64,000 bases of DNA from Terriglobia bacterium (lineage in GTDB: Bacteria; Acidobacteriota; Terriglobia; Acidiferrales; UBA7541). Position numbers and translations under genes: made by a program. Location of the stretch: NCBI GenBank assembly GCA_020073485.1, contig JAIQFB010000005.1:62001-126000 (forward strand), in the 5' to 3' direction. Positions 60,344-64,000 of the stretch are shown here, piece by piece (position 1 is the stretch's first letter; each line of letters opens with the position of its first letter). A model generated the notes under the pieces. That model ran no database searches, was not told where the DNA came from, and saw only the letters and a list, made by a program, of their open reading frames with translations.

Positions 60344-61315
60344 ATGCGAGAGGTTATGTTCACAAACCAAGTTGTCCGCCCAGTCCCACCGGATTTTTCC
60401 GGGACAGAGGACTTGCTCCAATTGCAAGTCGCTGCCCTGGAAGCCGCCGCGAATCCTATTCTCATCAGCAGGCGGGATGGCACCATCATTTGGGTCAACC
60501 ATGCATTTGAGCAGCTCTCTGGCTATGTCCGGGCAGAGGTGCTTGGTCAAAATACCCGTCTGCTCAAATCAGGGAAGCAAGCTCCGGCCATTTACAAGGA
60601 CCTTTGGGAGACGGTCCTTTCGGGCCAGAAGTGGCGGGGAGAACTGGTCAACCAGCGCAAGAATGGAAGTCTCTACCAGGAAGAGATGACCGTGACGCCG
60701 GTGAAAAACGCCTCCGGAGAAATCACCCACTTCATCGCCATCAAGCTGGACATTACCGAGCGGAAAAAGGCCGAGGAACAGATCCGCACGCTGGCCTTGT
60801 CGGACCCACTCACGGGACTGGCCAACTACCGGCGGCTTCTGGAAGTGCTGGATTCGGAAATCAGGAGGTATGACCGCACCGAGCGTCCTTTTTCCGTCCT
60901 GCTGCTCGACCTGGACGAATTAAAGAAAATCAACGATGTCTACGGGCATCTGACGGGAAGCCGCGCGATCGCCCGTGTTGCGGACGTGCTGCGCATGCAA
61001 CTCCGCGAAATCGATACCCCGGCGCGATACGGCGGCGACGAATTCGTGGTGGTCCTGCCGGAAACGGGGAGCGAGGCGATTCGCAAAGTGGTGAGGCGTA
61101 TTTCCGAGCGGCTGAGAGAAGACCCCGAGGAACCGCGTATTTCCGTGAGCTCGGGTGCGGCCATATTTACGGAAAATGGAAAGAACATCGACGAGCTGCT
61201 GGCTGCGGCGGACCGGGCCCTGTACCGTGAGAAGCGCGCTACCAAGAGGCTGCCCCCTCGAAGGCGCGTGCGGTCCCTGGTTCCACAGCTGCGCGGGCCC
61301 ATTGTCCCGAGTTGA
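60344..61315 (+). CDS. PAS-GGDEF diguanylate cyclase
   Basis: A 323-aa cytoplasmic protein. A PAS domain (about 25-145) includes GTIIWVNHAFEQLSGYVRAEVLGQNTRLL and a PAC motif KNASGEITHFIAIKLDITERKKAEEQ. The GGDEF domain (about 155-300) has the active-site YGGDEF near 232 and the allosteric I-site RxxD five residues before it (REIDTPAR), so it should make cyclic di-GMP and be inhibited by it. No membrane helix. It matches the PilZ proteins in the same window, though these are not adjacent. Start ATG 60344; an in-frame ATG at 60356 is also possible. Confidence 0.9.
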   Translation: MREVMFTNQVVRPVPPDFSGTEDLLQLQVAALEAAANPILISRRDGTIIWVNHAFEQLSGYVRAEVLGQNTRLLKSGKQAPAIYKDLWETVLSGQKWRGELVNQRKNGSLYQEEMTVTPVKNASGEITHFIAIKLDITERKKAEEQIRTLALSDPLTGLANYRRLLEVLDSEIRRYDRTERPFSVLLLDLDELKKINDVYGHLTGSRAIARVADVLRMQLREIDTPARYGGDEFVVVLPETGSEAIRKVVRRISERLREDPEEPRISVSSGAAIFTENGKNIDELLAAADRALYREKRATKRLPPRRRVRSLVPQLRGPIVPS

Positions 61316-61407: not shown

Positions 61408-62565
61408 TCAAGCGTTCGCAGCGCTTTCCGGGGGCGTACCGGCGTTGAAGATAGCTTCAGCGGGCGGCAGGCATTGAATTTGAATCAATTGCGACGAAGG
61501 GAAGGGCTGCGAGGACGCTTTCTTCGATTTCAGATTCTCGGATGCGATCCCGGTCCGCGCAAAAGATTTTTCGCAATCCTGATAGGAAGGCCCGCGCATA
61601 TTTCCTTCGAGGTAAGCCAGCCCCGGACAGCGCGTGCAGGTTCCGCCGTGCGTGCACTGGGAACAGGCAGGCATATCGCGGAGGGTGATGGAGCGAACCT
61701 CGTTGAGTTGAGGGGAATGCCGCCAAATGTCCGCGAATTTCACGCTCCGCACATTCCCGCTGGGCAGGGGAAACTGCACGCAAGGATAGACGTCTCCGTA
61801 CGGAGAGACGTAGCAAGCCGTGTGGCCAGCGCTGCACGGCAGCGAGTCCAGTGCGTCCGCGTCCGGGCCTTGCGGGGGCGCGCAAAATTCCTCTGCGTTC
61901 CCGACCAGGGCTTCGTTCCGGAATACCTCCCGCAGAGCCGCTTCGTCCACATTCAAATCGAGGATGGACCGGTCGCCATCCATCATCGGCGTGATTGTCG
62001 GGTCCAGAATGAACTGCGCGCCGAGCCCGGCTGCCAGGGCCTTCACGCCGGAATAGTCCCGGACGTTTTGCCGCATGAGCACATTGGCAAAGATCACCTG
62101 CACTCCACGCTCGCGTAACAAACGCGCCGCCCGGATCGACTGCCGCAGCGAGCCCGGCATTTTCGTGACGGCGTCGTGGACCTCGGGGCGATGCGAATAA
62201 ATGCTGATCTGCACTGATTGCACGCCCAGCGCGTGGATGCGTTCGGCTTGTGCGGCGCGAATCAGGACTCCGTTGGTCTTAAGCTTCACGCAGAACGTGC
62301 GGGCGCGCGCGTGCTCCAGAATTTCAAAGAAATCCTTGCGCATCATGATCTCGCCCCCGCTGATGGTGAGATAGAAGACGCCGGCAGCGGCCATCTGATC
62401 CAGAAGGTCCAGGATTTCCGCGGTGGCCATCTCGCCGTGATCGCGATGATCGAGGTAGCAGTGAACGCACCGCTCGTTGCAGCGATAGGTCAGGTCGAGT
62501 TGCACGCTGAGCGGGATGCCCATCTGGAGGGCCTTGGCGGCCATTTCCGCGGCCAATGCGCTCAT
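61408..62565 (-). CDS. Radical SAM/SPASM peptide-modifying enzyme
   Basis: A 385-aa enzyme. The radical SAM cluster is CNERCVHC near 29-36, followed by GGEI in the SAM site. The C-terminal SPASM domain shows seven cysteines as CX12GX4C, gap, CX2CX5CX2CX17C, close to the canonical pattern, thus holding two auxiliary Fe-S clusters. SPASM enzymes typically modify peptides, as in PqqE or sactipeptide and mycofactocin systems. It overlaps the PqqD-like gene by four bases (ATGA). The last 45 residues after the final Cys are Ser/Pro-rich and unusual. The substrate peptide is not visible. Confidence 0.9.
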   Translation of the reverse strand: MSALAAEMAAKALQMGIPLSVQLDLTYRCNERCVHCYLDHRDHGEMATAEILDLLDQMAAAGVFYLTISGGEIMMRKDFFEILEHARARTFCVKLKTNGVLIRAAQAERIHALGVQSVQISIYSHRPEVHDAVTKMPGSLRQSIRAARLLRERGVQVIFANVLMRQNVRDYSGVKALAAGLGAQFILDPTITPMMDGDRSILDLNVDEAALREVFRNEALVGNAEEFCAPPQGPDADALDSLPCSAGHTACYVSPYGDVYPCVQFPLPSGNVRSVKFADIWRHSPQLNEVRSITLRDMPACSQCTHGGTCTRCPGLAYLEGNMRGPSYQDCEKSFARTGIASENLKSKKASSQPFPSSQLIQIQCLPPAEAIFNAGTPPESAANA

Positions 62566-62882
62566 CGGGTTTCCCGCGGGGAACTATTGGCGGCGGCCAA
62601 GGGTTTGTCGGAAATCAGCAGGATGCCGTGTCCGGCGAGTTGCTGGATGAAATTTTCGGCGTCCCGCAGGGCAACGTCCGGCGGAATGTCATACCGCGCG
62701 CAGATTTTGTTCCGGACGATTTCGTCCAGGGGGGTCACTCCGTCCGCCGATTCCCAGAGCAGCGTCGCGATTTCGTCCAGTGTGAACAGCGTGGAACTGG
62801 CCGCGGACATGACCATGGTCTCGTCGCCCAGCGGGCGCGAAGCGATCGCCGCGCTGCGCGCCATATAGCGTGTGTCATTCAT
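62562..62882 (-). CDS. PqqD-family peptide-binding protein
   Basis: A 106-aa protein with the PqqD/RiPP recognition element pattern: ETMVMSAASSTLFTLDEIATLLWESADGVTPLDEIV, in which the strand-turn-helix region forms the peptide-binding wing, and a helical C-terminus (DAENFIQQLAGHGIL). It overlaps the kinase-like gene by four bases on its 5' side and the radical SAM gene by four bases on its 3' side, so all are translated in step. PqqD proteins present a precursor peptide to the radical SAM enzyme. Confidence 0.88.
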   Translation of the reverse strand: MNDTRYMARSAAIASRPLGDETMVMSAASSTLFTLDEIATLLWESADGVTPLDEIVRNKICARYDIPPDVALRDAENFIQQLAGHGILLISDKPLAAANSSPRETR

Positions 62883-63694
62883 ACCAGCAACTCCCAGACC
62901 GAAGCATTCGGAACAAAGGTCAAGCGGCGCACGGGCACGCGGCCGGCGAAATCCAAGGCCGCATCGAAGACCATGCGCACGAATTCAGGATCCCGCGCAA
63001 AGAAAAGAATATTTCCCAGCAATCCGCGGACGGCATCGGCCACGGCGAGCGGCTCGATTTTATTTTCCGGGCCTTTGGCGAGCAGGTACAAAGCCTCGAT
63101 GGGGGCGCGCAGGTTTTCTCCCGCCCTCGCCAGTTCGCCGTAAAACGGAGTGCCCACGGCGAGATAGCCGCCGCCCTGCCGGATCACGTACGAAATCTCG
63201 TCGGTCAGCAGGGCGGCGTCCGGGGGAGCGAGCCTGGCCATGGTCGTCTTGCCCGCGCCGGAAACGCCCGAAAATAAAAACGCGCGGCCGTTGCGAATGG
63301 CGCTGGACGCGTGCAGCAGGAAGCCGCCCTTGCCGGCCAGCAGCAGCGTATGCACGATGCGCAGCACGGAATCGAGCGCATAGGGATTGATGGTCTGCCG
63401 GATGCTCCCGAGCGCGGTCGCCGGATTCCATTCCGCGCGAAAATCGCCGCGCTGCATCAGCCAGCGACCCGAATCCCAGCTCACGCGCACGTCTTCGTCC
63501 CGCGAGGCGGTGCCGCGGGGGGCCAGTTCGATATCGAAGTGGAAACTCGGTTTGCTCGACGAGGTCACGTAGCCTGCATAGCGTTCTTCAATCTGTTGAA
63601 CGAAGGCAGGGTCGCCGCAGCGCAGGCGGATCGGCAGGCCGCCGATATCGACCACCACGTCCGAAACTCGCGCCCGCCCAGGTAAACCCGTCAT
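62879..63694 (-). CDS. HPr kinase-like (HprK-related) P-loop protein
   Basis: A 271-aa protein. The second half has the HprK C-terminal pattern: LLLHASSAIRNG, the P-loop FSGVSGAGKTT (about 141-151), LLTDEISYVI and GTPFYGEL. The first half is a beta-rich domain of unknown role. In several peptide-modifying clusters such HprK-related kinases phosphorylate the precursor or a Ser residue rather than HPr, and no PTS genes are present here, so a peptide-directed kinase is the better guess. Start ATG 63694 is set by overlap (ATGA) with the upstream gene. Confidence 0.85.
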   Translation of the reverse strand: MTGLPGRARVSDVVVDIGGLPIRLRCGDPAFVQQIEERYAGYVTSSSKPSFHFDIELAPRGTASRDEDVRVSWDSGRWLMQRGDFRAEWNPATALGSIRQTINPYALDSVLRIVHTLLLAGKGGFLLHASSAIRNGRAFLFSGVSGAGKTTMARLAPPDAALLTDEISYVIRQGGGYLAVGTPFYGELARAGENLRAPIEALYLLAKGPENKIEPLAVADAVRGLLGNILFFARDPEFVRMVFDAALDFAGRVPVRRLTFVPNASVWELLV

Positions 63695-64000
63695 TTTGTC
63701 TCCTTCCCAAGGAACGTCCGCCGGAAAGCGGCCAGCCGGAGGTAGAGAAAAGTCGCGCGATCCGAAGCCAGCAACAGGCGGACGACCCACTGGCCGGATC
63801 CATGGGCACGGGCCGCGAATTCGATTTTCCGGTTGCCGCGCTCGACCGAAACCACGCGTCCCAGCAATTCCCGTTTATGGACGGGAGGATCGTCATGAGC
63901 AAGACGGTCGCCGCGGGTAATCAGGCAAAATTCCTCGAGACCCGGCGCACCGCTCAAACCTTTTCGGTCCACAACCCGGTGGACAAACAATCTCCCCCTC
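63691..64000 (-). CDS. S24/S26-type peptidase, C-terminal part (gene continues beyond the window)
   Basis: The last 100 or so codons of a gene running off the right edge. GRLFVHRVVD, LITRGDRLAHDDPPVHKRELLGRVVSV are typical of the catalytic core of S24/S26 signal-peptidase-like proteins, where the first block contributes to the active site and the TRGD block is conserved. The C-terminus ends RRTFLGKETK. It overlaps the kinase-like gene by four bases and shares its operon. The N-terminus with the nucleophile Ser is outside the window, so function is inferred. Confidence 0.75.
   Translation of the reverse strand, partial: RGRLFVHRVVDRKGLSGAPGLEEFCLITRGDRLAHDDPPVHKRELLGRVVSVERGNRKIEFAARAHGSGQWVVRLLLASDRATFLYLRLAAFRRTFLGKETK

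Follow-up and report, generated by a model that had tools for sequence, protein, structure and literature searches.

PQQ is derived from the peptide PqqA and mycofactocin from MftA, and both pathways use a PqqD-like chaperone and a radical SAM (rSAM)/SPASM enzyme on a short precursor. A similar parts list is found in SynChlorMet (Scm, NCBIfam), which includes an HprK-like ScmC, a PqqD-like ScmD and the radical SAM proteins ScmE and ScmF. Phosphorylated or glycosylated lasso peptides such as paeninodin and pseudomycoidin combine a PqqD-like RRE, a YxxP-type leader, an HprK-like kinase, a C-terminal Ser and often a nucleotidyltransferase gene. In lasso precursors the C-terminal Ser is the phosphorylation target of HprK homologues, which show little other specificity, and hexose addition to the Ser phosphate of pseudomycoidin requires an annotated nucleotidyltransferase (PMC8498205, PMC9266682). 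The gamma subunit of quinohemoprotein amine dehydrogenase (QHNDH; QhpC/QhpD/QhpE) illustrates that a small rSAM-modified peptide can become the subunit of an exported enzyme, by way of a leader-bearing peptide, an rSAM/SPASM cross-link, leader removal by a serine protease and association with exported subunits (PMC7876137).

The cassette described here lies at the end of a 64,000-nucleotide stretch of Terriglobia DNA (the window) and resembles all of these systems in its predicted parts. As compared to the PQQ and mycofactocin pathways, it has a different precursor and adds a kinase and an S26 peptidase; its rSAM and chaperone scores are all below NCBIfam cut-off, and membership in either pathway was rejected. 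The cassette has one rSAM protein whereas Scm has two, and it was rejected as a SynChlorMet cassette on scores below the cut-offs for ScmC (32 vs 125 bits), ScmD (20 vs 100 bits) and ScmE (110 vs 400 bits). It differs from lasso clusters in its two conserved core Cys and in having an rSAM/SPASM enzyme with an S26 peptidase where those have the B2 protease and cyclase C. A strict lasso peptide was rejected because neither the cassette nor its flanking genes include the B2 transglutaminase-like protease or the Asn-synthetase-like cyclase C; a separate cluster (L032) of the same genome does have them. The predicted likeness to Qhp extends to the small leader-bearing peptide, its cross-linking, proteolysis and export, but the cassette protease is of S26 type whereas that of Qhp is subtilisin-like, the cassette adds a kinase, and no qhp homologue was noticed. 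A QHNDH gamma subunit was also rejected, since the precursor core has no conserved Trp for the CTQ cofactor (alignment A1).

The cassette unites two usually separate RiPP toolkits, namely rSAM/SPASM core chemistry and lasso-type RRE/kinase/nucleotidyltransferase tailoring, and adds to both a soluble signal-peptidase-like protease. The gene set as a whole fits none of the curated families that the searches turned up; its novelty is unproven given the limited open-access literature, in which no paper was found on the role of SynChlorMet, on PF14907 or on a radical SAM protein with PqqD and HPr kinase.

Organization of the cassette

The four minus-strand genes overlap at three ATGA junctions (63694-63691, 62882-62879 and 62565-62562), as claimed by the first-pass annotation. 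These overlaps are not due to chance, as relatives show: the 4-bp overlap of HprK and PqqD genes recurs in nearly every complete locus and that of PqqD and rSAM genes in most. The S26 reading frame stops at 63691 and is open at the window edge, which cut the cassette. A precursor had been predicted upstream of 64000, and the contig extension indeed holds a conserved 56-codon ORF there, ending 4 bp ahead of the GTG start of the S26 gene; the gene of a secreted propeller ends 87 bp ahead of this ORF (Table 1). The gap of 92 bp given for the downstream side of the rSAM gene is right in size and reaches up to a convergent ORF (60344-61315, + strand). This ORF encodes a putative PAS/GGDEF-like protein and adjoins the cassette in the close relative L020 too.

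Comparison across genomes, which the annotation had proposed, revealed that the neighbourhood is kept in many genomes of two phyla, in two gene orders. Type A, that of the window, runs propeller, precursor, S26, HprK, PqqD and rSAM. Type B runs HprK, PqqD, rSAM, precursor and then S26, with a CBM96 or Disaggr_repeat plus PQQ-like propeller protein between precursor and S26 in about half of the loci. The two types separate cleanly in the rSAM tree.

Table 1 Features of the cassette in coordinates of the window (G000:C39:62001-126000; window position = L002 position + 59000). Coordinates above 64000 are extrapolated window coordinates, the contig having been read on past the window end (L002).
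Feature	Position	Strand	Evidence
Radical SAM/SPASM maturase P0005	61408..62565	-	PF04055 (radical SAM) and PF13186 (SPASM) matches, invariant cluster Cys
PqqD-like peptide-binding protein / RRE P0004	62562..62882	-	PF05402; profile match to TbiB1
HprK-like kinase P0003	62879..63694	-	Invariant motifs; structure model; PEPCK/HPr-kinase fold
S26-type peptidase P0002, Ser-His type	63691..64000 in window, full gene 63691-64209	-	Motifs; SEC11A profile match
Precursor peptide P0001, 56 aa, MIDRKNPDEKAPESKKQKRPYKTPSLKFERVFEVSALACGKVFSTEGGCRVSRKAS	64214-64384 (L002:5214-5384), outside window	-	Conserved family
Exported beta-propeller P0006, from Met53	64472-66334 (L002:5472-7334), outside window	-	N-terminal hydrophobic stretch; PQQ-like/BamB profile

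Precursor peptide family

Almost every informative locus has a relative of P0001 next to the cassette, and a profile search places the precursor in 46 of the 299 genomes of the class. The loci inspected yielded 60 distinct peptides from Acidobacteriota and a few Pseudomonadota. The alignment of the family displays a variable N-terminal part, a YxxP leader motif, an invariant Glu, a [FY]ETxALxCGK core, a second Cys and, at the end, a Ser; the conserved stretch spans ∼25 residues and includes the two Cys and this Ser. In 59 of the 60 peptides Ser is the last residue, and all six Ser codons are used for it, so that the residue is kept and not just the DNA. The sole peptide ending otherwise (L112) stands alone, without a cassette, and looks broken. 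Two Cys follow YxxP in 48 of the distinct peptides and three in 11. Distant relatives in other Acidobacteriota lineages retain YxxP, Cys and the terminal Ser. The precursor is conserved and under purifying selection, with a dN/dS of 0.18 against its nearest relative, L020. No NCBIfam or Pfam match was obtained for the 22 members searched, i.e. the precursor and 21 relatives.

Predicted maturation enzymes

The family assignments of the first reading agree with the searches, which placed the components in the PqqD/RRE, HPr-kinase/PEPCK-fold, radical SAM/SPASM and S26-peptidase families; no cassette protein reaches any NCBIfam cut-off. The CxxxCxxC motif and the SPASM cysteines of P0005 are invariant in 17 homologues. 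No NCBIfam equivalog matches this enzyme at cut-off, the best score being that of mycofact_rSAM (156.9 vs 265 bits), and the PqqE model gives 109 bits against a cut-off of 381. The PqqD-like P0004 matches PF05402 (2.4e-14), and the nearest PDB match of its profile is the lasso B1 RRE TbiB1 (5v1u, 4.9e-7); it scores 12 vs 46 bits with the NCBIfam PqqD model and 25 bits with the lasso PqqD models (cut-off 80). A conserved short precursor ORF stands by the RRE and an rSAM/SPASM gene, which is the gene content of a RiPP with an rSAM/SPASM maturase.

Among homologues of the kinase P0003, His128, the P-loop GxSxAGKTT and TDExS are invariant. No Pfam HprK model matches P0003; its structure model (pLDDT 87) was placed in the PEPCK/HPr-kinase fold (Foldseek, VIA), with a Z of 15.6 over 236 residues for PEPCK. 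The protein has the HPr-kinase/PEPCK fold together with a P-loop and the catalytic His and acidic residues.

P0002 has the Ser-His-Asp active-site motifs of the S26B signal-peptidase family (SMxP, HR and GD...D), which are invariant; its profile is nearest to Sec11 (SEC11A, 2.3e-8) and it matches PF00717 with 27.3 bits (cut-off 23.3). A housekeeping signal peptidase has a membrane anchor, whereas P0002 is without a membrane segment (maximum 19-residue hydropathy 1.14), and the anchor is absent in 16 homologues as well (maximum 19-residue Kyte-Doolittle 0.55-1.54). The case that the first-pass annotation had named as speaking against it, an ordinary signal peptidase with no precursor nearby, is not found here, P0002 having no membrane segment and the precursor ORF lying close by.

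Association with an exported beta-propeller

One specific exported protein goes with the type-A precursor gene. In the genome of the window this protein, P0006, is present as a single copy and carries an N-terminal hydrophobic stretch; its sequence profile matches PQQ-like/BamB propellers in the PDB, and its identity rests on this profile and not on Foldseek matches, the structure model being too poor (pLDDT 50). The profile of the type-A propeller matched 33 of the 299 genomes, comprising 30 of the 31 genomes with a type-A precursor as compared to 3 of the 268 others (Fisher p ∼1e-36, kinship between genomes ignored), the type of genomes without a fully read locus having been set by profile score alone. 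In the sole type-A-precursor genome without the propeller (G074), the rSAM is divergent and the peptide shortened. Among the three other propeller genomes, two have loci without a precursor beside the propeller and the third locus is located where its contig ends.

In G003, G008, G162, G246 and G261 propeller and precursor are unlinked, so the link between them does not come from operon drift alone. Where there are tandem duplicates (L105, L124), the precursor and the exported protein stay side by side. Two precursors are present in L105 and also in L110; behind each of those in L105 comes a separate exported propeller protein. In L124 (1404-12049) there are two tandem pairs of an exported protein of 1620-1689 aa and a precursor-like ORF ending ...SGPISS, and a C25 peptidase domain is present in the first exported protein, the one of the two that was scanned.

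Several observations count against a partnership: no propeller adjoins the cassette in L021, L023, L052, L090-L092 and L094, several propellers accompany a single precursor in G162, and the exported proteins paired with type-B and more distant loci are different ones. In the type-B loci L029, L102 and L103, the interval from precursor to S26 gene showed no exported protein. Most orphan RiPP clusters lack a functional lead such as the near-exclusive pairing seen here with a single exported propeller.

Proposed pathway and alternatives

The cassette probably makes a small, chemically modified peptide, cross-linked and phosphorylated, as judged from its genes. The guess of a peptide-maturation pathway made by the first-pass annotation largely holds, although the exported beta-propeller, the nucleotidyltransferase and the likeness to lasso tailoring were absent from it. 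The gene content, the precursor family, the conserved catalytic motifs and the co-occurrence of the propeller are observed; each chemical step (cross-link, phosphorylation, cleavage site), export and what the peptide does with the propeller are inferred. The YxxP leader of the 56-aa precursor would be held by the PqqD-like RRE. The conserved C-terminal core (CGK...C) would be the target of the rSAM/SPASM enzyme, with a Cys-based cross-link as the most likely modification. The HprK-like kinase would phosphorylate the C-terminal Ser, a step that gains support from the conservation of this residue, the predicted kinase substrate, which also makes the kinase hypothesis directly testable. The phospho-Ser could then be decorated in many genomes by an NTP_transf_5 nucleotidyltransferase, and the leader would be removed by the soluble Ser-His S26 peptidase. 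The mature peptide would act with the exported beta-propeller, its likeliest role being that of a small subunit or a prosthetic peptide, by analogy with QhpC/QhpD/QhpE. To this reading as a whole, a radical-SAM RiPP cassette in which recognition and tailoring are of lasso type and whose peptide acts with an exported propeller, we give an even chance. Its more specific form is put forward tentatively, the balance leaning against it: an rSAM-modified, C-terminally phosphorylated or phosphoglycosylated peptide, matured by a lasso-like RRE/kinase set, would serve a new class of exported beta-propellers as prosthetic small subunit, and would represent a new protein-partnered kind of RiPP that spread through Acidobacteriota and was handed on to Pseudomonadota.

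The same enzymes could instead make a free secreted RiPP, a signal or antibiotic, with the propeller as receptor, immunity protein or surface protein carried along. Free lasso peptides are known to receive such tailoring by kinase and nucleotidyltransferase (PMC8498205, PMC9266682), and ABC transporter genes, recognized by sequence only, lie near some loci (L021, L039). This explanation is a serious one that falls somewhat short of an even chance; in two phyla the core is conserved, without diversification (dN/dS 0.18), the conserved cassette includes no dedicated transporter or immunity gene, and propeller and precursor co-occur even when unlinked.

Complete degradation of the peptide to a small diffusible redox cofactor, like PQQ or mycofactocin, for use by the propeller would agree with the PQQ-like sequence of the latter, with the mycofactocin maturase as best NCBIfam score of the rSAM enzyme and with the several propellers that one precursor can accompany (G162). 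It is nevertheless improbable: no curated cut-off is reached (156.9 vs 265 bits), the conserved cassette has no dehydrogenase or further cofactor gene, and ∼25 conserved residues with two Cys and a terminal Ser exceed the needs of a two-residue cofactor. Although every family also has members in other roles, an ordinary operon made up of unrelated housekeeping genes (for a signal peptidase, a kinase and a radical SAM protein) and yielding no common peptide product is very unlikely indeed and was rejected because of the conserved precursor and the gene set, the latter being the same in two phyla and two gene orders; the coupled overlaps and the S26 protein without a membrane segment, unlike a housekeeping signal peptidase, also stand against it.

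Distribution and neighbouring genes

The cassette is carried by soil Acidobacteria, and the plasmid search returned a single weak rSAM match. Thermomonas beijingensis (L050) is an example of a host that has been cultured. The Pseudomonadota members nest inside Acidobacteriota and their copies also have the propeller, which suggests that the cassette was transferred to Pseudomonadota together with its propeller. A distant relative (L126) has the order NTP_transf_5, HprK, PqqD, rSAM, precursor and S26; a second, predicted radical SAM gene with a B12-binding look (L126:6200-7618, - strand) is located between its precursor and S26 genes.

NTP_transf_5 genes occur near ∼20 type-A and 6 type-B loci, and the only one in the window's own genome sits in the separate lasso-type cluster (L032; G000:C45, ∼381-390 kb). 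This cluster encodes PqqD, Transglut_core3 (B2), Asn synthase (C) and an HprK-like protein, along with a Cupin_8/JmjC protein, a PRMT-like methyltransferase and the NTP_transf_5. Genes for O-antigen ligase (Wzy_C), TPR and glycosyltransferase proteins lie downstream of rSAM in L021, L051 and L053 (those of L051 recognized only from sequence likeness), a hint that the setting involves the envelope or an exopolysaccharide.
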